Shown here in pieces: positions 2,865-23,818 of a stretch of 64,000 nucleotides of DNA. A program made the position numbers and the translations under genes. The DNA is taken from the NCBI RefSeq assembly GCF_019375555.1, contig NZ_JAHXDN010000001.1, positions 969,501-1,033,500 of the forward strand. The letters are read 5' to 3'. The notes below the pieces were generated by a model, which ran no database searches, was not told where the DNA came from, and saw only the letters and a program-made list of their open reading frames with translations. This stretch comes from Roseobacter insulae (GTDB taxonomy: Bacteria; Pseudomonadota; Alphaproteobacteria; Rhodobacterales; Rhodobacteraceae). How positions within the stretch are numbered: the stretch's first letter is position 1; the number at the start of each line of letters is the position of its first letter.

Positions 2865-4118
2865 TTATGCCAATAACGACGTGCCGTCGTGTCCCTTGAT
2901 CGTCAGGTCGACGATGCTGCCCTCCCGCTGCGGGGTGCTGAGCTGAACCTCACAAAACTGCTCAGTCCGGCCCATTGTCGGGCTTTCCATCAGCACCCGG
3001 TGATGCCGCCCGACTTGCGCTTGCAAATGGGTGCGCACACGCTCAGCACCGGCCTTCCGCAGGCATGCCGCCCGTGCCTTGATGGCGTGCCCGTCGACTG
3101 CCGGCATCCGCGCGGCGGGCGTACCGGGCCGCGGCGAATAGGGAAACACATGCAGCCAGGTCAGATGACAGTCTTCCACCAGGGCCAGCGAGTTGTTGAA
3201 CATCTCTTCCGTCTCAGTCGGGAAACCGGCGATGATATCCGCGCCGAAAGTCATGTCCTGCCGCAGCTTGCGCGCGTCTTCCGCGAACCGGATCGCGTCA
3301 TCCCGAAGATGCCGCCGTTTCATCCGTTTCAGGATCAGATCGTCCCCGTGCTGAAGCGACAGATGCAGATGCGGCATCAAACGGGGTTCGGTTGCAATTG
3401 CCGTCATCAGGTTTTCGTCGACCTCGATGCTGTCGATGGAGCTTATGCGCAGTCGCGGCAGATCCGGGACCAGACGCAGGATTCGCATCACGAGGTCACC
3501 CAGTTTGGGGTTCGCAGGCAAATCCGCGCCCCAGCTGGTCAGGTCGACACCTGTCAGCACAACTTCGTTGAAGCCCTTATCGACCAGCCTCTTTATCTGA
3601 TCCACGACCATGCCCGCGGGAACCGAGCGCGAGTTACCCCGGCCATAGGGGATAATGCAGAAGGTGCATCGGTGGTCGCAGCCGTTCTGGACCTGGACAT
3701 AGGCGCGACTGCGGGTGCCGAAACCGTCGATCAGATGGCCGGCCGTTTCCGTCACGGACATGATATCGTCGACCTGAACCGCCTCGGTGTGTCCGACAAA
3801 GTCGGCGGCGAGTCCGTGCCACGTGGTGCCCTGCATCTTTTCGGTGTTGCCGATCACGGCATCCACCTCGTCCATCCTCGCAAAGGTTTCCGGCTCGGTT
3901 TGCGCCGCACATCCGGTCACGATCAACCGTGCCTCGGGATGCGCGCGGCGCAGCTTTCGAATGTCTTGGCGCGCCTTGCGGACGGCCTCTGCCGTGACCG
4001 CGCAGGTGTTGACCACCACGGCGTTTTCCAGCCCGGCCTGTTGTGCCAGCTCTTTCATTGCTTCGGTTTCATAGGCATTCAGACGGCAGCCCATTGTGGA
4101 AAATACCGGGGCTTTCAT
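2865..4118 (-). CDS. mtaB: tRNA t6A37 methylthiotransferase MtaB
   Basis: A 417-residue radical-SAM enzyme that adds a methylthio group to N6-threonylcarbamoyladenosine-37 in tRNAs. The N-terminal UPF0004 domain has its three cluster cysteines at Cys11, Cys39 and Cys70. The radical-SAM cluster motif CDHRCTFC is at 147-154 and a TRAM-like domain ends the protein. Starting STMGCRLN rather than the MiaB or RimO pattern supports the MtaB subgroup. Its ATG overlaps the dapF stop by four bases (ATGA), so the two are co-translated. Confidence 0.93.
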   Translation of the reverse strand: MKAPVFSTMGCRLNAYETEAMKELAQQAGLENAVVVNTCAVTAEAVRKARQDIRKLRRAHPEARLIVTGCAAQTEPETFARMDEVDAVIGNTEKMQGTTWHGLAADFVGHTEAVQVDDIMSVTETAGHLIDGFGTRSRAYVQVQNGCDHRCTFCIIPYGRGNSRSVPAGMVVDQIKRLVDKGFNEVVLTGVDLTSWGADLPANPKLGDLVMRILRLVPDLPRLRISSIDSIEVDENLMTAIATEPRLMPHLHLSLQHGDDLILKRMKRRHLRDDAIRFAEDARKLRQDMTFGADIIAGFPTETEEMFNNSLALVEDCHLTWLHVFPYSPRPGTPAARMPAVDGHAIKARAACLRKAGAERVRTHLQAQVGRHHRVLMESPTMGRTEQFCEVQLSTPQREGSIVDLTIKGHDGTSLLA

Positions 4119-4957
4119 GTCAGGCTTTCCAGAAACGAGGGGGTGAGTGTGCCGCTGAAGACATGGGTTGTAGGGCCGGTCATCCAGACACCGTCCTCGC
4201 GCCAGTCGACAAAGATCGTGCCGCCGTCCAGTTCAATTTGCACCTTGCGACCGGTCAGCCCGCGTCTTGCGGCGGCAACGCCTGTTGCGCAACTGGATGA
4301 GCCGGAGGCGAGCGTTATACCCACGCCGCGTTCCCACACGCGCATCCGGATGTGGTCCGGGCCGATGATATGCGCGACCTGAACGTTGGTGCGTTCGGGG
4401 AACAATGGGTGGTGTTCATGTTCGGCCCCGAAAGCGGCAAGATCGACGGACCCCACATCGTCCACGAAGAAGGTGCAATGTGGATTGCCCAGGCCGGTCG
4501 CAACGGGGGATCCTTCAATCGGCAGGGCCAGCGTGTCCATGTCCGAGGCCAGCGGTACGTCGGACCAGCCCAGCTGCGGATGCCCCATATTGACCGCCGT
4601 AAGCCCGTCACCTGCATCGCAGGCCGTCAGGACACCCCGGTCGGTGGTAAGCGTCAGCGTCTCCTGCCCGGTTTCCTGCATCACATGCCGCGCAACACAG
4701 CGTGTCGCATTTCCGCAGGCTGCAGAAAGGGACCCGTCCGTGTTGTAGAATGTCAGATGCAGGCCGTGGTCTTTGCTGGTCATCACGGCCAGCTGGTCAA
4801 ACCCTACACCGCGATGTCTGTCACCGAGAGCCCGGGCCAGGGCAGGGGTTATATCGATTCCCTGCACGCGCGCGTCCAGCACGACAAAGTCGTTTCCCAG
4901 CCCGTGCATCTTCATGAAGGGCAAACCGTTATGATTATCGCTGCGCATTTCGGCCAT
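4115..4957 (-). CDS. dapF: Diaminopimelate epimerase
   Basis: Converts LL- to meso-diaminopimelate for lysine and peptidoglycan synthesis in the cytoplasm, without a cofactor. The product has the family start FMKMHGLGNDFVVLDAR and both catalytic cysteines (AACGNATRC in the first half, SGSSSCATGVAAA in the second). The start is uncertain: the ATG at 4957 gives 280 residues, the ATG at 4948 lacks three of these, and neither has a strong ribosome site. An upstream frame to 5032 would run into the tRNA promoter and is rejected. It is first in a two-gene operon with mtaB. Confidence 0.93.
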   Translation of the reverse strand: MAEMRSDNHNGLPFMKMHGLGNDFVVLDARVQGIDITPALARALGDRHRGVGFDQLAVMTSKDHGLHLTFYNTDGSLSAACGNATRCVARHVMQETGQETLTLTTDRGVLTACDAGDGLTAVNMGHPQLGWSDVPLASDMDTLALPIEGSPVATGLGNPHCTFFVDDVGSVDLAAFGAEHEHHPLFPERTNVQVAHIIGPDHIRMRVWERGVGITLASGSSSCATGVAAARRGLTGRKVQIELDGGTIFVDWREDGVWMTGPTTHVFSGTLTPSFLESLT

Positions 4958-5014
4958 ATAAGCCGATGCGGCAAAACTATCCAGTATGTCCTTGCGAAAA
5001 CACCGAATAAGGGC

Positions 5015-5043
5015 TTGACCCTCCCCCGGCACCTTTCTAAGTA
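5015..5043 (+). promoter_or_regulatory. Promoter of tRNA-Lys
   Basis: TTGACC at 5015-5020 and TAAGTA at 5038-5043 are separated by 17 bases and lie just upstream of the mature tRNA start at 5056. This is the expected arrangement for a housekeeping sigma promoter, and the TTGACC box matches the strong -35 of alphaproteobacterial stable-RNA genes. Confidence 0.6.
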
Positions 5044-5055
5044 CACCGCCTAGTG

Positions 5056-5131
5056 GGGCCGTTAGCTCAGTTGGTAGAGCAGCTGACTTTTAATCAGCGG
5101 GTCGCAGGTTCGAATCCTGCACGGCTCACCA
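5056..5131 (+). tRNA. tRNA-Lys (anticodon TTT)
   Basis: A 76-nt cloverleaf with a 7-bp acceptor stem (GGGCCGT with ACGGCTC, one G-T pair), D arm, anticodon stem GCTGA/TCAGC around loop CTTTTAA, T arm with GGTTCGAATCC, and an encoded CCA. The anticodon is TTT. The 18-kb accessory region begins immediately after it, making its 3' end a possible integration site. I could not find an integrase or a second copy of the tRNA 3' end. Confidence 0.97.
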
Positions 5132-5143
5132 CTTCTTCCCATA

Positions 5144-6340
5144 GTGTCTTCTCAGCTGCTTCTGGCAGCGCTCTATTTCACGCAGCCCGGCCAGCTTCTG
5201 GAGACGGCACGGAAGGGCAAGACGGCACAACTGCTGATCGGCCTCAACGAAGCAACCAGCCCGCAGGCGCTGTGCCAGCTGCATGAGGTGCCGGGCGTTA
5301 CGATCCGGTACCAGACCAGCCGGTTCCATGCAAAAATTTCATCTTCGATCAGGCCGCCTTGCTGGGATCGTCAAACCTGACGGATGGCGGCCTGCGCGCC
5401 AATCGCGAGGCGGTTGTCCGGCTCGACCGCGACGATAATACCGACGCTGTCGACGATATCCGCGCACTCTTCGTCGAGCTTGGGGATGCCGGGCAGGTCC
5501 TGACCCGAAAAAAACTGATGCCTTCGAGAAAATTTACGATGAACTGAAGCGCCGTACGCCTGATCCTGAAAAAGAGATCGAGGCAGCGCCGGGACAGGCC
5601 CAGCCGCCCAACGTCAATGTCAAAAGCCACGAGAAGTCCAGCGAGCGCATCTTCCTCGAAACCTTACGACAAGAAGTCTATGGACAGTGCCGCCCTGCCT
5701 TCAGCGAGGTGACGGCGTCCTCGACGAACATGGATTTCGCCGCACGGATCTCGCGAATGTCGGTACCGAGAACGAAACCAATCGCTTTCTGAACTATGTC
5801 AGACTGACCCATATGATCGGCGACGAGGCATGTCAGACTGACCCGCTGCGTAGCATCTAAGACCGCCGCCAGGAGATCATCCTCTACGCGCAAGAGTGGG
5901 TTGATGCTGCGAACCGCAAGGTGCCCGAAGACCACGCCGCCTGGATCGAGACGGTGAAACGAACATTCGGCACACGCAAGGTCACCGAAGCGGCCAGCAA
6001 GGAGGACACTACCGACGGCCTGATATCACTGCACGCCTTCACAGAATAGCTGCGTTTCGTAAAGGGCGGCCTGAAAGACCTTCCCGCTGAATTCTGGAAG
6101 GCGAACAACGATGATGTCAACCGCGTCAAATCCACATTGACCTACCTACTGCACGGCCCTGGCGATTTCATCCAACGCTTCCACGATGTACTCCATGACC
6201 GGTCGATCAAGCTGACGCGCTTCGCCTATTTCTGCGCTCTCGAACTCCATGGCACCGTCAAACCCGACGAATACCCGCCGATGAACGGACGCATGGCCAA
6301 GGCGCTGCGTTTCCTCGACTTCGACGTGAAAGGTGAATAG
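5144..6340 (+). pseudogene. Decayed phospholipase D-like domain protein
   Basis: Successive frames together read as one PLD-superfamily protein. The first part contains the HxK half-motif (RFHAK). After a frameshift near 5335 comes FIFDQAALLGSSNLTDGGLR, the typical following segment. Further pieces continue to DFDVKGE just before 6340. At least two frameshifts and in-frame stops (near 5858 and 6047) break it. An exact 15-base direct repeat, ATGTCAGACTGACCC (5796-5810 and 5830-5844), marks local damage. Related proteins are often helicase-associated or defence-associated, but this copy is surely inactive. Confidence 0.75.
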
Positions 6341-14626: not shown

Positions 14627-16642
14627 CTAGGCGCGAAATCCGCTTCGTTCCATCTGCTCAGCGACGCCGCCACCCTCTGCCGTCAATCGAGTATCGCGTC
14701 CGCGTAGCCAATTGATCTTGTTCTGATTGTGATCGGACTCAGTGTTGATGACCAAGGCGCCAAGGTTGAGTGAGCTTACGGTATCAGACCCGCCAAATGC
14801 TAAACTGTTGACCAAGGCTTGTGTCAGCGCATTGACGACCTGCGGAACCGCCACACTCGTGCCGTTCAATGCCACTTTCACCGCCGATCTGCTGCCTGCA
14901 GCCAGAACACCACCTAACACGCGCGAGCGGTCGCTGATTGCTGCCATGTCCGGCGATCGGACACTGTCCGACCCTGCTGAAGAATAGCTGGCACAAGAGG
15001 CATCCCGCCACCGATACCCAGCAACCACAATCATGCTTTCGGCGGTTGCGATGCCGTTGAGGGTGCCATAGCCGGTCACGCGCCCGCTCTTAGCAAACCA
15101 GTTTACATACTCGGAAATTTCGTTGTCGATCTTTTGCGCGCGGGACTCTTGGTGGTTCAGAAGCCGCGAAGGTTGGCCGGGTCTGCGATAGCCATAGGGT
15201 GGCTCATCTCGTTGAATCCATGCACAAATATCATCATTGGTCCGCAATGTTGCCGAGACCCGAATTTTCCAAACACCAGCAGGTGCAAATGGCGGTTCAA
15301 GCCGCGGGACATAGGTGGGCGCAATGGCCAGCAGGAGCCTGATTTTGCCAACTCTGTTTCGTTGCGCATCCAGTTCGACATCCGCTGCGGCCCAGGCAAC
15401 ACCTTTCTTGCTGTCGCTGTCAACCAGTTCCAGATACCCGCCTTTCTCTTGGATTAATGCTGCTGCGCCGAAGCGCGCGTTCGGCGGGACCAGTTCGATC
15501 GTTCGATCTAGGGCTGTTCCCGGCAGCCAGATCTCCAAAAAGTTGGGCGATTGATCCTGTGCGGGGAGCATCCAATCAAGTTCCAGCTGATGCTGCCCAT
15601 TATGATCTGCAATCAGAGCAGCATGCCCATCCGCGCGGAACCTGTTTCCCGCTGGAAGGACCACATGCACCGGGTTGACCGAATCATTCGAGTCGCCCGC
15701 ATCTGTGATTTCGGCAAAGCATTTTTCGACCGGATGCGAGCCAAGACGGCTGCCTGCACCCAGCCCATAGCTGAAATTCACTACAAGTGGGACGCTACCC
15801 TGACCAAGCGCACGTGCAATTTCGCGAGCGCGGGCTTCGATGTAGCGTATGGCGGCTTTTACAAAGAGATGTAGGATAGACCCCGACGCCTCAAGGATCA
15901 CACGGCGCGGCAGTTGAACGGAAATGATCCGTCGGTCTTGCCCGTCCTCGTCTTCGGGCTCGTAACCGCATGCAAGATCCATAACATGCGTGCCGTGGCT
16001 AATCCGCTTAGTCAGCCCAATCGTTTCGTTTTGGGCGAAATCTGCGAGCTCAAGCTCTTTCAAAACCGCATCTTCGCTGTCTGAGCTTTTCAGGACGTGC
16101 TCAATTTCAGCATTCGACCATTCGCGCCCAAACGGTACGGTCGGCGCAGCCGGGTCTTTGGGCTTGCCATCCATCACCCACGCATAATCAACGCGAGACG
16201 TCTTGTTGGCCCCCTGAAATCTATGATGTGCGAAATTGGTCGCATCATCGACTACGGCAACGATGACAAGCTGCTTATCCTGCTGAGGCTTGGCTAGGCC
16301 GGGGCTGGGCGCTGCTGCCAAATGGTCGTAGTTTTGCGGAACACTTTCGGGCCTGAGCGGCGCACGATGCCACGGCTCGGGTGGGATCAAAGAGCCATCT
16401 GTATCCGGATCCCAAGGCTGCACGGAAGTGATCCGAATTCCGTCCAGGGCCGCTGCGGGATCACCCGATTTTGTCGCGGCCACGTTGCTCGTGTCTTTAA
16501 TCCAGAATGGCTGCTGATTCACTGGCTCGCCAGGATAGCCAGCCTCGAAGCGCTGGCCGAATTTCTCGTACCAAATGACGTACGGACTTTCGAATGTCCG
16601 CTCAGAAATCTCCGGTCGATGCTCCCACTCAAACTGTGTCAT
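14627..16642 (-). CDS. S8 subtilisin-like serine peptidase, 671 aa
   Basis: The catalytic set of subtilases is present: Asp132 or Asp133 in VAVVDDATNFAH, His216 in ISHGTHV, Ser596 in LNGTSVAVP, and the oxyanion Asn333 in VLPAGN. An insert of about 250 residues separates the last two blocks, larger than in secreted subtilisins. No signal peptide or propeptide is obvious, so the enzyme may act in the cytoplasm or leave by a non-Sec route. The ATG has GAGGG upstream, and the stop of the haloperoxidase-like gene lies within the same spacer (9 bases), so the two are coupled. Targets unknown. Confidence 0.9.
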   Translation of the reverse strand: MTQFEWEHRPEISERTFESPYVIWYEKFGQRFEAGYPGEPVNQQPFWIKDTSNVAATKSGDPAAALDGIRITSVQPWDPDTDGSLIPPEPWHRAPLRPESVPQNYDHLAAAPSPGLAKPQQDKQLVIVAVVDDATNFAHHRFQGANKTSRVDYAWVMDGKPKDPAAPTVPFGREWSNAEIEHVLKSSDSEDAVLKELELADFAQNETIGLTKRISHGTHVMDLACGYEPEDEDGQDRRIISVQLPRRVILEASGSILHLFVKAAIRYIEARAREIARALGQGSVPLVVNFSYGLGAGSRLGSHPVEKCFAEITDAGDSNDSVNPVHVVLPAGNRFRADGHAALIADHNGQHQLELDWMLPAQDQSPNFLEIWLPGTALDRTIELVPPNARFGAAALIQEKGGYLELVDSDSKKGVAWAAADVELDAQRNRVGKIRLLLAIAPTYVPRLEPPFAPAGVWKIRVSATLRTNDDICAWIQRDEPPYGYRRPGQPSRLLNHQESRAQKIDNEISEYVNWFAKSGRVTGYGTLNGIATAESMIVVAGYRWRDASCASYSSAGSDSVRSPDMAAISDRSRVLGGVLAAGSRSAVKVALNGTSVAVPQVVNALTQALVNSLAFGGSDTVSSLNLGALVINTESDHNQNKINWLRGRDTRLTAEGGGVAEQMERSGFRA

Positions 16643-16651
16643 AGCGCGCCC

Positions 16652-17848
16652 TCACATGTCCGCCGCGCGCCGATCTGGCCATTCCGCCTTGGCCTTTTCC
16701 CATAGCCAAGTTAGCGGCAGGCACTCGGTTGCGGTTACGACATTCACTTTGGCCCCAAGCTCAACAATTCTACGGCCCGCAGCATCTAAGGATTGTCTCT
16801 GCCCTTTGTCGAACAGCGTCCTCATTCGAAAATCCTCATTGCCGACGACTGTGCCATCGAAATGTGCGGTGCTGATAAAATTGCTGGTTGTCTCAGTATA
16901 GGGGCCAGCAGCGCCTGGCCCAAGTCCACGCCCACGCGCCACGAAATACTCGCCCAGCCCCAGACCAAGCATGGCTCCAGCAATGGAGTCGGCCGGGAAG
17001 TGCACACCTGCAATCGTCCGGTTGATCGAGATTCGTTCGGCCTGATGCATGAGTTGGTCTTGTATTCCAAACTCGATGTCACGATCATCGATCAGCAGGG
17101 ACATAACGCGTGCGACCGTGAAGGCTTCCGTGGCATGGCCGCTCGGCAAAGTGCCATGACCCGGCATGGGGATCATGGGTTGGATCTGGCTTGAGAACAT
17201 GTCTGGACGCTTGCAGGCCAACGCGTGTTTGACCCGCTGCGCGATACCGGTTGCAAATAGCTGTGCCGTTGCCATCAGTTCGAGCGAATATTTGGTGCGC
17301 GATGGGTGCAGCCCCAATATCACGCCAAAGAAATGCTCTGGATAGCCAGTTTGTGACAGGATTTCTGCAGAGCGGTCCATGCGCAATTCGGCATATGTGT
17401 TGACGTAGTCCAACTGCTCCTTGAAGTCTTCGATCCTTGGGCGCCGGAAGCTGAACAGCGGCTCGGACTCGTAAGTTGTCTTGCCTTCGGTCAAAATGCC
17501 CGCGCCAAGATGGGACACTTGGAAGTCGATGCCGTCTTTAGGCGCAGTTTCAAAAACCATACCAGCCAGCAAATCTGACTGGATGACATAGCCGCGCGCC
17601 CAAACTGGCCATTCGGACATGTTGCCAGCCTCTCCTGCCGTGTAGGCGGACACGTTGCGGTTGGGCCCGGCCCACCGCCCCATGATTCCGTCGCGGGCCG
17701 TTGTGACGGCGTACGATTCACCGGGTGTAAAACCCCGCCCGCCGACCCCGCCCCCGGCCCCGGTCGCGCCGGTTGCTCCAGTAGCGCCCGTGGCACCAGT
17801 TGCGCCCGTGGCACCAGTTGCACCGGTGGCGCCTGTTGAAAACGGCAT
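16652..17848 (-). CDS. Vanadium-haloperoxidase/PAP2-superfamily protein with collagen-like N-terminus
   Basis: Three motifs of the vanadium-dependent haloperoxidase/acid phosphatase fold are present: K-x6-RP in KHALACKRP (about residue 207), PSGH (about 235), and R-x5-H-x3-D in NRTIAGVHFPAD (about 277). The protein may thus halogenate or dephosphorylate an unknown substrate. Before the domain lies an uninterrupted (Gly-Ala-Thr)8 tract and a glycine-rich linker, like collagen-type triple-helix or surface tails. No signal peptide is seen. The ATG at 17848 follows AAGGGGAG. The gene sits between the SARP-type regulator (21 bases) and the subtilase, in one operon. Confidence 0.85.
   Translation of the reverse strand: MPFSTGATGATGATGATGATGATGATGATGAGGGVGGRGFTPGESYAVTTARDGIMGRWAGPNRNVSAYTAGEAGNMSEWPVWARGYVIQSDLLAGMVFETAPKDGIDFQVSHLGAGILTEGKTTYESEPLFSFRRPRIEDFKEQLDYVNTYAELRMDRSAEILSQTGYPEHFFGVILGLHPSRTKYSLELMATAQLFATGIAQRVKHALACKRPDMFSSQIQPMIPMPGHGTLPSGHATEAFTVARVMSLLIDDRDIEFGIQDQLMHQAERISINRTIAGVHFPADSIAGAMLGLGLGEYFVARGRGLGPGAAGPYTETTSNFISTAHFDGTVVGNEDFRMRTLFDKGQRQSLDAAGRRIVELGAKVNVVTATECLPLTWLWEKAKAEWPDRRAADM
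17762..17833 (-). repeat. Gly-Ala-Thr coding repeat (8 units)
   Basis: Seventy-two bases encode eight consecutive GAT triplets. Codons vary at third positions, but two adjacent blocks (GGTGCCACGGGCGCAACT type) are nearly identical. Unit number could therefore change by slippage or recombination. Confidence 0.85.
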
Positions 17849-17869
17849 GACATCTCCCCTTCGTGCCAA

Positions 17870-19543
17870 TCAAGATTTACGAATTCCGGCTTCCTCCAGG
17901 GCTTTTGCCCATCGCTTACCGGTATCAAATTGTGCGGCAGGATGCGTGCTGAGATAGCCACTAATGGTCAGGTTCGGCTCGCGTCGGGCCAACTCTCTTG
18001 CGGAGGCTTTCGCCTCTTCCATGCGCCCCAGACCATGCAGGGCGATGGTGCGAGTGCGTAGTGTAGAATTGTGCATGGGGTTGCGCTGGTAGGACCGCTC
18101 CGCCAGCGCAAGTGCTTCAACATAGCGCATCGCCGACAGTTCAGCCGTGGCTGACAGTGTGTCGAATAGATATGCCCCCGGATCCAGAGGGGACAGGATG
18201 CGCGACTGTCGCGTTTGAGCGACTGCCGGCTCATACGCACCCTGGATCGCATGCGATACGCCGGAAAATAGGCATCCATAGGCGTTGTTCGGATCAAGAT
18301 CGAGCGCATGTTCGAACCGCTGCCGTGCGACATCGAAATTCTTCAGCACATTGCTTTCCAGAATCCCGTCCACAGAAAGCGAGAACGCGCAAGTCGGGTT
18401 CAATTCCAGCGCCCTCGCCGTGCAATCCTTGGCCCGCGTTGCGTCCAAACTGGCATTGTCGTGCCATCCCTGCGACAGACAAAGCACGTACCACAACCCA
18501 AGCCAGCTATGCACAACCGAGTTGCGCGGCGCCCGGCGGAGCAGCTCTTCTAAATACTTGCGTGATCTGGCACTGCTTGCGATGTCCTGCTTATGTAGAA
18601 GATACACAGCGGACATGAACAGATCATGGGAGTTGGTATCCGGGAGCGGCGTCGCGCTTGCCAAATCAAGCGAGGTGCGCAGCACTGATTTCGACACTGC
18701 GAGCGCGATTTCGGCGGCAACCGTAGATTCGCTTGCAAAGAATGCGTTCAGATCTCCCTTGAATTCGGAAGACCAGACAAAGTCACCCGTTGCCATTTCG
18801 ATCAAGTCGACCGTCACGCGAAAGCTGTTCGCCTTGCACACAAGCGCACCCGAAACGACGTAGTCCACATTCAAAGCGTTCTTCAGAGTGTCCAAGTCCA
18901 CATGTCGTGCGTTGATGCTGCGGCAGGAAAAATGCGATTTGATATTGGCGAAATGCGATTTCGAAAGTGTGCGCGCGACTTCTTCGGCCAGCATATCCCC
19001 GAGCAATCCGTGCTCGTTGCCTTTGTGAAGAGACAGAAAAGGCAACACGCCAAGCGCAGGAATAACTCGATCGACGGGGCGTGTGGCTACAGGTGGCAAT
19101 GACGTAGGTGGTGCCAAGGTCTGGGCGAATACCGGGTTTTTGCGTTGATCGCGGAGCCAATCCTCGAACTCCGTCAGTCCGGTTAGATCGAGCCCTTCCA
19201 GAAAAAGGCCATCTGTTGGCAATCCGATCACCTCGACATGCTCAAGGTTGAGCTTGACGCAACTGCGATCACTGTCATCCAGCACATATGCGCAGGCCGG
19301 ACCTAATGCGCCGCGTAGGCTGGATATGCACTGCCGAAGCGAGCTGTTGCCGCGTTCTTCATCGTAGGCAAGCGGCCAAAGCATTGAGCGCAAAAATGTG
19401 CGCGAGCGGCGGCCATCTGGCGCCTTAATCAATAGAGCAATCATTGCGCGCAATTTCTGGTTTTTGATGACCAGCCGTTTATTTTCAACCAACCAGGCAT
19501 CAAAAGCGCCATAAAGGCGAACTGAGAATTTATAATCTGCCAT
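17870..19543 (-). CDS. SARP-type transcriptional activator with TolB-like and TPR domains
   Basis: A 557-residue regulator. Residues about 5-100 form an OmpR/SARP winged-helix DNA-binding domain (LRAMIALLIKAPDGRRSR, then NSSLRQCISSLR). A TolB-like N-terminal segment follows (ALGVLPFLSL, ...VDYVVSGALV, about 165-300), with TPR-like helical repeats to the end (ALELNPTCAFS, ALDLDPNNAYG). This layout is known from activators of enzyme and symbiosis loci in alphaproteobacteria. It is first in an operon with the haloperoxidase-like and subtilase genes and is probably their activator. The signal sensed by the TPR part is unknown. Confidence 0.85.
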   Translation of the reverse strand: MADYKFSVRLYGAFDAWLVENKRLVIKNQKLRAMIALLIKAPDGRRSRTFLRSMLWPLAYDEERGNSSLRQCISSLRGALGPACAYVLDDSDRSCVKLNLEHVEVIGLPTDGLFLEGLDLTGLTEFEDWLRDQRKNPVFAQTLAPPTSLPPVATRPVDRVIPALGVLPFLSLHKGNEHGLLGDMLAEEVARTLSKSHFANIKSHFSCRSINARHVDLDTLKNALNVDYVVSGALVCKANSFRVTVDLIEMATGDFVWSSEFKGDLNAFFASESTVAAEIALAVSKSVLRTSLDLASATPLPDTNSHDLFMSAVYLLHKQDIASSARSRKYLEELLRRAPRNSVVHSWLGLWYVLCLSQGWHDNASLDATRAKDCTARALELNPTCAFSLSVDGILESNVLKNFDVARQRFEHALDLDPNNAYGCLFSGVSHAIQGAYEPAVAQTRQSRILSPLDPGAYLFDTLSATAELSAMRYVEALALAERSYQRNPMHNSTLRTRTIALHGLGRMEEAKASARELARREPNLTISGYLSTHPAAQFDTGKRWAKALEEAGIRKS

Positions 19544-20142: not shown

Positions 20143-20640
20143 GATCAGGACCCATTGATTTCCGCTTAGGAGCGTGATTCACGGTTCGAACGTCGAGCGG
20201 TGAACATGTCTGACCTATTCTGGCTGGTAGACGCGCAGATAGAGCGTCTTAATTCCTACTTCTCGAAGTCGCACGGCAAGCCGCGCGTTGATGACAGGCG
20301 CGTCCTTAGTGGGATTATCTTCATCAATCGCAATGATTTGCGGTGGGGCGATGCGTGGTTCTGCGACCCGCAAGCGCCGTACCAAAAGGCACGGTCGAGA
20401 ACACGAACAACAGGCTGCGGAAGTACCTGCCCCGCTCAACCGAACCGCTGGCGCTGACAAATCGATATTTGAGGTCGATTTGCCACCGCCTCAATTCCAC
20501 GCCGCGCAAATGCTTGGGCTATCACACCCCTGCTGAGATCTTCGAAGCCAAGCTGATGGAAATCCAGAACCGTCTGGAACAAACGACATATCAAGAACTG
20601 CACTTCACCGTGAGTTCACATATGCGGGATCAATGAAGTA
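20143..20640 (+). mobile_element. Fused remnants of an IS5-type and an IS30-type transposase
   Basis: From 20206 the frame reads as the N-terminus of an IS5-group transposase (MSDLFWLVDAQIERL, RVDDRRVLSGIIFINRN). Near 20350 it changes to the middle of an IS30-family transposase (WFCDPQAPYQK). One missing base then shifts the frame, and the IS30 C-terminus continues to 20636 (GTVENTNNRLRKYLPRS, TPRKCLGYHTPAEIF). GGATCAGGACCCATTGATTT at about 20144 looks like an IS5-group end. Neither transposase can be active. Confidence 0.8.
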
Positions 20641-20792: not shown

Positions 20793-21011
20793 ATGCGTAG
20801 GTGGAGATACGTCATTCTATTCGTGGCGATCAGTGTAGTTGCGTATGTCGTCTATACCTCGTTTCGTCCACCTTTAGGTATGGAGCCGCTCGGCGGCAAT
20901 GAAGAGACAATCGCAAATATCGGCCTTTGGACCGCAGTAATCAGTGCTGTCGGGGCGTTCTTTAGCCTTCTAAAAGACGTTATCGGCCTATTCAACAAAT
21001 CCGAGGACTAG
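20793..21011 (+). CDS. Small membrane protein beside the caspase gene, 72 aa
   Basis: GGGGCTGAG precedes the ATG at 20793; an earlier ATG at 20766 is possible. The product has two hydrophobic segments (about 5-22 and 35-55), a short periplasmic loop and a charged C-terminus ending NKSED. Its stop is only a few bases from the following caspase-DctP frame, and the ribosome site of that gene (GAGGA) lies within its last codons. The two are therefore likely co-translated and may work together at the membrane. No family recognised. Confidence 0.65.
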   Translation: MRRWRYVILFVAISVVAYVVYTSFRPPLGMEPLGGNEETIANIGLWTAVISAVGAFFSLLKDVIGLFNKSED

Positions 21012-21046
21012 CGATCCGCCTGACCGCACTCATCCTCTGCGCACTG

Positions 21047-23215
21047 TTGCAGCTTATGGCTACGTCGGCACCGGCCCAGCAGGCAGCGGACGTGCACAGA
21101 AATATCGACACCTCTCTGACTTGGTGGGACCGTGTCAACAACGAATATAAATGGCTACGAAACAGCCTAGGCAACAGGTACAGATTCGAACGTTCTATCG
21201 GCGTGGTTATCGCGATCGGCGATTATACCGGTGATTTCAAGCCCTTGTCTTCGCCCGCCAAGGACGCTGTGCGCATGCGTGATTTCCTTTTGAATGAGGC
21301 TGGTTTTGACGAAGTCCACGTCTTAATCGATGAAGACGCTAGTAGCGAGAATATACGGCATTTGATGGAAGATATCATCCCTGATCGCGTTACCGAGGAT
21401 GATAGGCTGCTCCTTTATTGGTCTGGTCATGGAGGTTCTGGAAAGGATTCCAGAGACTACCCTTATGGCTTTCTTGCATTGCAAGACGCTTCGAAGGATG
21501 GAAAGCAGGGCTCGATTTATATGGATGAGGTGCGGCGATGGCTTAGGCGGATCGACGCGCGGCATGTCTTGTTCCTAATTGACGCATGCTACAGCGCGCG
21601 CGCGCTTCAAATGATGTCGAGCGGGGAAGATCCAGTTTGGGAGCAAATGGCTGCACCGGCGGAGCATATGCTGACATCGAGCGGCGGCCAGGATGTGTCC
21701 TACGGCTATACAGATGGATCCGGTGGTTTGTTTACCACAGCTTTTTTGCAAGCTGCTCGCGGTTCGGCCGACGCAAACAAGGACGGGCTGACAACGATCA
21801 CCGAGATCGCCAGCTATCTGGAGCCGCAGCTCAGCAAAATGACACATTTGGGTTTCACTCAATCCCCGCAATTTGGCGCTATTGGCCTGGATACTGGTCG
21901 TTTCTTTTTCCTCAGCGGCCACAGCCCACCGGACAGTCAAGCTCCATCAGAGCCGAAACCAATCGAATCCTCAGGGTTTGACGCTTGCACCGCCGCAAAC
22001 GCAGATTACGAGATCTTCGTCCGCGGCGCTCAGGATTGTTTGGAAGTGGAAATCTTCCTCGAAAACCACAAGGAGTCCAGCGATTGCACAGCGGTAAAAG
22101 CCGCCGAAAGACGCAAAGAGAGCTTGTGTGAATTCGCGGCTGCTGCGCCGCCTCGCGATCCTTGTTCCTCAGTGGTCCCGCCGGAAGGCATGCGCTGCTC
22201 TGTTGATCCGCAGGGCCGCGCGGTGTTCCAAGATATCGTCAGCGTGCCGCTCGCGACAATAAATACCGATCCCGTGACGCTTCGGGTTCAGACACATTAC
22301 TCACCTGAAACCTCAAGCGGCAGGGCCGTTGCCCAATTTGCTGATGCGGTGAGCAGCAGGAGCGGAGGCAAAGTTAGTTTTGAAGTATTCTATTCCTCAT
22401 CCGTCGTCAGATCGGTCGATACCTTCGATGCGGCAGCTACGGGCATCCTCGATTGCGATATGACCGGTGGCGGTTATCAAACCGGAAAAGACCCGGCTTT
22501 TTGGCTAGTAGGTGACATCTACGGAGGGTACGAAACGCCAGAGCAACAGATCAAATGGTTGAATTTCGGCGATGCCGAGGAAATAGTGCAAGAGCTCTAC
22601 TCGAAGTATGGTATGCACTTCGTTGGCTGGTGGATTGCGGGCCCAGAGTCCCTAACAGCGTCGACGCCGATCAGGGGTCTAGAGGACGTCAAAGGGCTGA
22701 AGATCCGCACGCCTCCCGGCGTACTGTCTAGAGCTTGGCAACGGCTGGGCGCGAGCCCTATCGTCATGGATTTCACCGAGATATTCACCGCGCTTGAGAC
22801 TGGCATTCTGGACGGTGCTGATGCCTCAAATCTTGTAAATAACGTTGGCTTGGGGCTCTACGACATCTCACGCCACACCGCCTATCCGGGCTTCCATTCC
22901 ATGCCGTCGGATCATCTGGCCTGCAACAAAGACATGTGGGATGGACTTCCAGTGGTGGTTCAGAATCTGATTGGAGAAGAGCTTCGGGCGATGGCAGCGG
23001 ATTTGGCCGCCAGTACGCGGATCGAAAACGATGAAGCGGCGAGAGAAGTACGCGATCAAGGCGTAAGCATCTACGTCTGGTCGCGGCAGGACCGCATGAC
23101 TTTTCGCCAGGCCGCGCTCGACGAATTCGAGGCGACGCTTGTGTCAAACAGTCTTGGCCAAAGATTACTGAGAAGTCATCGGCAGTACATGGGTCAGATC
23201 GGTTTACTGAATTAG
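21047..23215 (+). CDS. Exported caspase-like protein fused to a TRAP-type (DctP) solute-binding domain
   Basis: A 722-residue protein. Residues 50-290 form a caspase-fold (peptidase C14) domain: His128 in YWSGHGG and Cys181 in LIDACYSA are the catalytic pair. A cysteine-rich helical linker (about 310-385) follows. Residues about 405-722 resemble TRAP-transporter DctP proteins: THYSPETSSGRAVAQFADAV, the binding-site segment GLKIRTPPG with Arg554, then FTEIFTALETGILDGAD. No TRAP membrane genes are nearby. The listed start is a TTG; 33 bases upstream, after GAGGA, the frame could begin at an ATC codon and encode a signal peptide (RLTALILCALLQLMATSAPA). A ligand-gated periplasmic protease is inferred. 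Confidence 0.85.
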   Translation: MQLMATSAPAQQAADVHRNIDTSLTWWDRVNNEYKWLRNSLGNRYRFERSIGVVIAIGDYTGDFKPLSSPAKDAVRMRDFLLNEAGFDEVHVLIDEDASSENIRHLMEDIIPDRVTEDDRLLLYWSGHGGSGKDSRDYPYGFLALQDASKDGKQGSIYMDEVRRWLRRIDARHVLFLIDACYSARALQMMSSGEDPVWEQMAAPAEHMLTSSGGQDVSYGYTDGSGGLFTTAFLQAARGSADANKDGLTTITEIASYLEPQLSKMTHLGFTQSPQFGAIGLDTGRFFFLSGHSPPDSQAPSEPKPIESSGFDACTAANADYEIFVRGAQDCLEVEIFLENHKESSDCTAVKAAERRKESLCEFAAAAPPRDPCSSVVPPEGMRCSVDPQGRAVFQDIVSVPLATINTDPVTLRVQTHYSPETSSGRAVAQFADAVSSRSGGKVSFEVFYSSSVVRSVDTFDAAATGILDCDMTGGGYQTGKDPAFWLVGDIYGGYETPEQQIKWLNFGDAEEIVQELYSKYGMHFVGWWIAGPESLTASTPIRGLEDVKGLKIRTPPGVLSRAWQRLGASPIVMDFTEIFTALETGILDGADASNLVNNVGLGLYDISRHTAYPGFHSMPSDHLACNKDMWDGLPVVVQNLIGEELRAMAADLAASTRIENDEAAREVRDQGVSIYVWSRQDRMTFRQAALDEFEATLVSNSLGQRLLRSHRQYMGQIGLLN

Positions 23216-23395: not shown

Positions 23396-23818
23396 TTAAG
23401 TCAGGTGCCGCGCGCGGGCGCCGCGTTCGATGGCGGCGGCGTGCAGGCGGTCGAGGTTCAGCTCGTAGCGGATTTCCTCCAGCAGGCGCAGTTCCGCCTC
23501 GTCAAGTGTCCCGTCCGCCGCCGCGACATCGCAGGCCAGCGCGTAGGCCGTCTCGAAAAGCCGTTCGGGCAGGCTCTCGCGGATCAGGCCGAAAAGGGCA
23601 TCAAGCCCGTCCTCCTGCTCGAAGAGGTCGAAAACTGTCTGGCTGATCGTGCCAAGCCGGTCTTCGTCATATCCGGCGAAGATCGGCAGCATCTGCACCG
23701 CAGACTGTATCTTAACGAGTTCGGCGGTGCGGATGTCCTCATCGGACGCGGAAACGGCGATCATGAGGGCGACAAGGCTGTCTTGCGCGGAAAGCGCGTG
23801 GGCGGGATCATCAGGCAC
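23396..23818 (-). CDS. TerB-like protein
   Basis: A 140-residue all-helical protein with the TerB/DjlA acidic pattern: SAQDSLVALMIAVSASDEDIRTAELVKI and a second similar motif, ACDVAAADGTLDEAELRLLEEI. Such domains bind metal and occur in tellurite-resistance and other envelope-stress proteins. The start is a GTG at 23818. It is divergent from lysK with a 115-base gap, and marks the return to core gene content. The exact role is unknown. Confidence 0.8.
   Translation of the reverse strand: MPDDPAHALSAQDSLVALMIAVSASDEDIRTAELVKIQSAVQMLPIFAGYDEDRLGTISQTVFDLFEQEDGLDALFGLIRESLPERLFETAYALACDVAAADGTLDEAELRLLEEIRYELNLDRLHAAAIERGARARHLT

Follow-up and report, generated by a model that had tools for sequence, protein, structure and literature searches.

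A caspase-like protease fused to a TRAP-type solute-binding domain in Roseobacter insulae, with a small membrane partner in a putative two-gene module

Results

Gene content of the locus

The window, meaning the whole 64,000-nucleotide stretch of Roseobacter insulae DNA that was analysed, carries two neighbouring genes on the forward strand. The initial annotation had described them as a gene for a small membrane protein followed by one frame encoding a caspase-like protease and a DctP domain, and both open reading frames (ORFs) were found as described: a single frame, ending at the stop 23215, holds Peptidase_C14 and DctP, each above its Pfam cut-off. The features, in window coordinates, are as follows.

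20793..21011, forward strand: gene of the small two-helix membrane protein, ATG to TAG, 72 aa (ORF list)
21003..21007, forward strand: SD-like GAGGA, read from the sequence, 6 nt ahead of the in-frame ATC 21014
21014..21076, forward strand: putative encoded signal peptide, from the translation, with similar N-termini in relatives
21047..23215, forward strand: caspase–DctP fusion ORF, 722 aa from TTG, the frame being open further upstream
21200..21874, forward strand: Peptidase_C14 caspase domain (Pfam 3.3e-17), His codon 21428–21430, Cys codon 21587–21589
21986..22198, forward strand: cysteine-rich linker with 6 Cys, the first four common to the Neomegalonema relative
22301..23116, forward strand: DctP (TRAP solute-binding) domain (Pfam 3.4e-41), arginine codon 22706–22708
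23400, no strand: left boundary of synteny with relatives, which takes in TerB and the next gene on the right (blastn)

The mechanically called ORF of the small membrane protein opens earlier, at TTG 20745 (ORF list).

Caspase domain

The Peptidase_C14 model (PF00656) matched the fusion ORF with 63.4 bits against a cut-off of 21.4. The His-Cys dyad, annotated as complete, is present in SGHG and DxCxS motifs and was invariant in 11/11 aligned rows, that of the window included; the catalytic cysteine, called Cys181 in the initial annotation, is residue 200 when counted from 20990. Structure prediction, proposed there as a check, gave a divided result: the AF2 model is confident in the caspase core (block pLDDT 80–94, model residues 41–170) and mixed in the rest of the domain (54–92), but the DctP half, which was modelled without relatives, and the arrangement of the domains in the full-length model were poor. 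Using Foldseek, the caspase part of the AF2 model found a metacaspase as its best match (E 4.2e-11, TM 0.61 by target length), and the core matched metacaspases, MALT1 and caspases. PADLOC assigned a generic caspase model to the window and to the three relatives scanned, gave a weak MotB-type match for the OmpA end of one relative (L075, listed below) and returned no match for the small membrane protein.

Start codon and export

The fusion had been annotated as apparently exported. Its signal-peptide-like stretch, IRLTALILCALLQLMATSAPA, lies upstream of TTG 21047 and not within the TTG-started ORF, and reading of the sequence found no ATG, GTG or TTG ahead of the encoded signal peptide in the fusion frame. 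The GAGGA before ATC 21014 is presumed to provide translational coupling to the small gene. Relatives of the caspase carry signal-peptide-like N-termini at the same place (translations and alignment), and in four loci (L066, L070, L075 and L076) the ATG of the caspase gene and the stop codon of the small gene overlap; export of the fusion is therefore likely, by homology to these relatives. Expression is the weakest link of the caspase–DctP fusion.

DctP domain and its free paralogue

The C-terminal half matched DctP (PF03480) with 141.9 bits against a cut-off of 23.4 and passed NF037995 (93 against 50 bits); TIGR00787 was not reached (90.9 against 175.05 bits). Because the AF2 model is poor in this half, the fold is assigned from sequence matches (Pfam 3e-41; PDB 4pe3, E 2e-48). 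Arginine 573, which we take to be the conserved ligand arginine by function, was invariant in a 6-row alignment, in agreement with the annotation of a DctP-type domain that keeps this residue.

The fused domain was then set against the 19 best-scoring free-standing DctPs of relatives and the genome's own copy (20 genomes). It keeps 105 of the 128 columns that are invariant among these 20 free-standing orthologues, including long runs (PIVMDFTEIFTALETG, and GFHSMPSDHLACN nearly so), and loses 23, arginine 573 being absent from the lost columns. The free-standing proteins are 77–99% identical to their nearest fellow, and the fused domain is 52–57% identical to each of them, a strong divergence that could reflect either relaxed constraint or new specificity.

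The best other DctP of the same genome is a free TRAP paralogue (L063 4722–5801), which is 52% identical and shares the long conserved runs. Two membrane genes come after its gene; their position and sequence suggest DctQ and DctM, and a PF06808 match at 338779–340341 confirms the second as DctM. The fused domain belongs to the same family as this free paralogue, which sits in a TRAP operon. The annotated lack of TRAP membrane genes near the fusion was borne out for DctM, since a PF06808 search found no such gene in the window and the nearest lies about 45 kb away, outside it. With the free paralogue in a TRAP operon, one could suppose that DctP in the fusion docks on the DctQM encoded by this genome (at about 338–340 kb on contig C1) and brings the protease there, a proteolysis linked to TRAP transport that we regard as improbable, given the 23 of 128 invariant columns lost and the presence elsewhere of the module described below without DctP.

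A small membrane protein accompanies the caspase in relatives

Relatives were collected by a pattern-limited scan with a three-member caspase alignment against an 84,980-species collection, which gave 14 loci. Twelve of these, at E 2e-31 or better, together with the locus of genome G836, make 13 distinct strong relatives (L082 repeats L067; L070 comes from G011 and L077 from G385): a Neomegalonema MAG, Fluviibacterium, Labrenzia alba, a Sulfurovum MAG, an uncultured Roseobacter, four Tateyamaria, which are close kin and not independent, a Rhodospirillaceae MAG, a Thiothrix MAG, Candidatus Rhodobacter lobularis and G836. The range covers Roseobacteraceae, other alphaproteobacteria, Thiothrix and Sulfurovum.

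A two-helix membrane protein is encoded directly upstream of the caspase in 13/13 of these relatives, and the small upstream protein that the initial annotation had proposed as a partner is supported as a real one. An HMM built from 11 relatives, with the window copy left out, found the window partner at 62.3 bits, and leave-one-out partner HMMs, with close pairs left out together, recovered the partner in 12/12 cases. The partner HMM found none in 62 other caspase locus records (best E 0.36), a set that is not random, includes repeats of one place and has flanks of mostly about 1.5 kb. In 12/12 genome handles, or 11 distinct genomes, since G1030 and G1374 look like one, the partner occurs once, next to the caspase. 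Partner distances followed caspase distances (Mantel r 0.75, 12 pairs, p 1e-4), also without the Tateyamaria type (r 0.60, 8 pairs, p 0.015). No Pfam family matched the small protein, either in the window copy or in the relatives' partners; AF2 places its helices at residues 2–24 and 36–71 (mean pLDDT 79.7), with a loop between them of the kind R-x-P-x-G-x-x-P...E-T-I-A.

Searching 385 class and 398 phylum genomes for the partner returned the window copy and two weak matches (class sample); as only the window copy is credible there, the module appears rare and patchy. The weak matches, at L053 and L054, were rejected (E 0.024 and 0.94 with a larger model; the long ORFs of L053 are unrelated). 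Among the more distant relatives of the caspase, L078 (Planctomycetaceae) and L079 (Atribacteria) lack a partner by HMM and are not counted as module members. Judged by sequence, this is a sporadic two-gene module, consisting of a constant two-helix membrane protein of about 70–105 aa and an apparently exported caspase with an exchangeable C-terminus.

The Tateyamaria-type partners (L070–L074 and L081) carry at their C-terminus a long charged extension that is probably cytoplasmic. Those that were aligned (L070, L071, L072 and L081) lack the arginine found in the loop of most other partners, which argues against cleavage there as a general mechanism. In each of three other genomes of the same bacterial family, three caspase-like matches lie within about 8–18 kb (G400:C12 11341–25652; G389:C6 25319–42913; G956:C5 32152–39808); the partner HMM found no small partner at the loci scanned from these genomes.

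The C-terminal domain differs among relatives

Pfam assigned the C-terminal ends of the relatives as follows.

L066, L069, L076: FGE-sulfatase
L070 (scanned as L021), L071, L081: PG-binding and FGE
L067: Sel1, with a PG-binding match just under the cut-off
L077: PG-binding, with a region without known family
L075 (Rhodospirillaceae MAG; 3639–5194): OmpA
L068: no known domain

The ends of L072–L074 were judged by eye to be like that of L071. By identity, the nearest relative of the window caspase is L066, the Neomegalonema MAG (39–42%), and in the caspase tree, across which the C-terminal domains vary, the window groups with L066 and L068 with moderate support (84/75). The six linker cysteines of the fusion are residues 333, 350, 366, 380, 392 and 403; four are common to the window and L066 (DPCVGANAEYELFVRNARQCWEVEAYLETH against DACTAANADYEIFVRGAQDCLEVEIFLENH), in which an FGE-sulfatase domain then follows. 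Since L066 shares the caspase and cysteine linker and has a different end, DctP sits at a swappable position. The simplest reading is that the caspase and linker are older and that the C-terminal domain was exchanged. An interchangeable domain is favoured over a one-off accident because caspase, cysteine linker and partner are kept with other domains. The PG-binding and OmpA domains fit the periplasm and are counted in favour of a periplasmic caspase.

Search for a second caspase–DctP fusion

No second caspase–DctP fusion was found in the 14 scan loci (84,980 species) or among the caspase loci sampled at family, order and genus level; with a single genome per species in the collections, and close neighbours of the window's genome perhaps left out by the scan, the fusion may still occur in sister strains. 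The DctP model, which as a control finds the window and L063, found the domain in 0/16 module locus records and 0/62 other caspase locus records. A single-protein search with the caspase half over genome contigs returned nothing, where the alignment-based scan succeeded; viral contigs gave no match to the caspase or DctP alignment, and plasmids gave only distant caspases for the caspase half (21 records, all with query coverage under 80%). The search for the same fusion and partner in other genomes, suggested in the initial annotation, was thus successful for the partner (13/13 relatives) but gave no homologue with both domains. The caspase–DctP fusion is one sequence, and the conserved two-gene module is the sturdier and larger finding. 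Singleton status does not make the fusion false, as its caspase, linker and partner recur next to other domains.

A singleton could also arise by an assembly or annotation artefact joining two genes, which the initial annotation had named as a possible refutation. We rejected an artefactual join with the genome's own DctP, because the best other copy is 52% identical and no near-identical one exists elsewhere in the genome; with a linker that, next to the caspase, has a homologue in a relative, and with the module inside a 1.27 Mb contig, an artefact of any kind is hardly credible.

Genomic surroundings

Four of the 18 other genomes of the genus were compared; in these, synteny runs from window position 23400 rightwards, blastn alignments beginning at 23400–23401 in 4/4. 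The right-hand syntenic part includes the TerB gene and an adjoining gene, present in 19/19 genomes, the gene to the right of TerB being taken for a putative lysyl-tRNA synthetase. In the left flanks (about 16 kb) of the four same-genus genomes, blastn found no alignment of more than 150 bases to window positions 1–23400. GC content is 54–60% at 12–19.5 kb, 50–52% at 19–21.5 kb and 57–65% at 23–30 kb. The module sits in a variable region.

Several other features were observed in this region. Upstream of the module, in the low-GC part, lies a remnant of an IS4/5-type transposase (20200–20457, forward strand; DUF4096 27 bits against a cut-off of 34.3). A PAP2-type phosphatase (16652–17869, reverse strand; Pfam 9e-12) carries a Gly-Ala-Thr repeat near its N-terminus that matches a collagen model under the cut-off; the ORF adjoining its gene (17870–19543, reverse strand) has TPR and BTAD matches under the cut-off, and a 671-aa ORF (14627–16642, reverse strand) has no Pfam match at E 0.001.

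A variable locus with a transposase remnant below the Pfam cut-off, a signal peptide without an ATG, GTG or TTG start, the singleton status of the fusion and its fast-diverged DctP would all suit a decaying gene, in which the fusion arose in the variable region beside the remnant of a mobile element and is poorly or not expressed. The frame of more than 720 codons is intact, the dyad and 105 of the 128 DctP invariants are kept and an SD-like site precedes the ATC, so that decay appears rather unlikely.

Discussion

A sensor-gated periplasmic caspase as the preferred reading

We tentatively favour, with a probability of roughly 40%, a periplasmic caspase that is gated by a sensor and paired with an unchanging partner in the membrane; membrane protein and protease stay the same across the module while the binding domain changes, which fits such a design. 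The initial annotation had likewise predicted a ligand-gated periplasmic protease, with the small membrane protein as anchor or signal relay, and is supported in part, namely for the two domains, the probable export and the partner. We infer the export, disulphides, gating, target and outcome in the account that follows. The caspase would be secreted to the periplasm. The N-terminal charges and the loop of the small protein, with its helices as predicted, suggest a topology in which the N-terminus is inside, the loop periplasmic and the C-terminus inside, which would place the loop where the caspase would be. The loop could then hold the caspase at the inner membrane, where it would be kept off until the C-terminal domain senses something: proteins or glycans for FGE/C-type-lectin-like domains, the cell wall for PG-binding and OmpA domains, and for DctP a small molecule that is probably akin to what the ancestral TRAP system binds. 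Closure of the DctP clamshell round its ligand would send a signal through the linker, probably braced by disulphides, and switch the protease on. As a first target, the two-helix protein would be the likeliest, whether it serves as an anchor, a substrate or an executor.

Several results were counted against the sensor-gated reading: the want of a second fusion and of a canonical start, the poor AF2 model of the DctP half and of the domain arrangement, the lack of the loop arginine in Tateyamaria-type partners, the moderate tree support and the divergence of the fused domain (52–57% against 77–99%).

A bolder form of the sensor-gated caspase, which we hold to be possible and still doubtful, is a new periplasmic caspase system in which the two-helix protein acts as executor, forming a pore or giving a signal once a caspase with a cartridge-like receptor releases or activates it. 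The window would hold the variant with a TRAP receptor as trigger, a small-molecule-gated caspase. The module was seen in Alpha- and Gammaproteobacteria and in Campylobacterota.

To our knowledge, few triggers of bacterial caspases are known. Where nature has fused a caspase to a solute-binding domain that has clear relatives among transporters, the trigger becomes testable, and the constant partner is an equally testable first substrate. The conserved caspase–partner pair further delimits a module for which other genomes can be searched.

Comparison with known systems

Among the matches listed in a search of the open literature, neither a caspase–DctP fusion nor a small two-helix caspase partner appeared, which is a weak test, for the fusion in part because the term DctP is confused with the nucleotide dCTP; on this weak test, no earlier description of the two-gene caspase module was found.

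Multidomain prokaryotic caspases with FGE-sulfatase (33 sequences) and PG-binding (11) domains were reported by Asplund-Samuelsson et al. (2012; PMC3501461), and module relatives have the same two kinds of end. That paper also includes a Cyanothece caspase joined to ANF_receptor, which binds ligands outside the cell; in contrast to the present case, 'solute-binding' and 'SBP' have 0 occurrences in its main text, and its operon section mentions no small two-helix partner. One cyanobacterial metatranscriptome sequence, Metacaspase|PBP_like_2, likewise joins a caspase to a domain named as a binding protein, of another domain family (PMC4933709, in the part cited). In the sections consulted of these papers and of PMC7159879, fusions of caspases to FGE, PG-binding or other binding-protein domains are already in print. 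FGE/CLec domains, which resemble the FGE-type ends seen here, are described by Dore et al. (2024; PMC10907252) as putative antigen sensors in diversity-generating retroelement systems and proposed as sensors in conflict systems; the systems in the cited part of that paper are STAND or ternary, unlike the module. The free TRAP paralogue is 52% identical to the fused DctP and differs in standing alone, followed by its two membrane genes.

In gene order, the module is like the EACC1-caspase 'System 4' of Kaur et al. (2020; PMC7159879), a two-gene conflict system that, in the cited part of the paper, has a 5' gene for a membrane protein and a 3' gene with an N-terminal caspase and a variable C-terminal domain. 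The variable domains are read there as effectors deployed by self-cleavage, and TM helices followed by a periplasmic-binding-protein domain are reported at the variable position. This supplies the main rival to the sensor-gated reading: the membrane protein would sense, the caspase would cut itself and the C-terminal domain would be released as cargo. The shared gene order and variability speak for it, as do matches of the caspases to the EACC1-associated caspase model (NF047832), which lie under the cut-off of 140 bits at 85.2 bits for the window and 54–74 bits in 9/9 relatives scanned. DctP, PG-binding and OmpA would be binding domains without obvious toxic action, and the constant component is not EACC1 by Pfam, so that we consider release of an effector unlikely.

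The EACC1 domain (PF19953) was found neither in the window's small protein (E up to 0.1) nor in 12 partners (E up to 1, filters on); a genome search with it gave 0/5, with control genomes likewise at 0/14. Membership of the EACC1 family was rejected on the partners, which have no PF19953 match, and on the caspases, which fall below the NF047832 cut-off in 10/10. The constant component has two helices here and, in the cited part of PMC7159879, one TM helix with alpha+beta extensions in EACC1; unlike in the EACC1 system, the whole caspase appears to be exported. By analogy, the module may be described as EACC1-like in layout and not by family.
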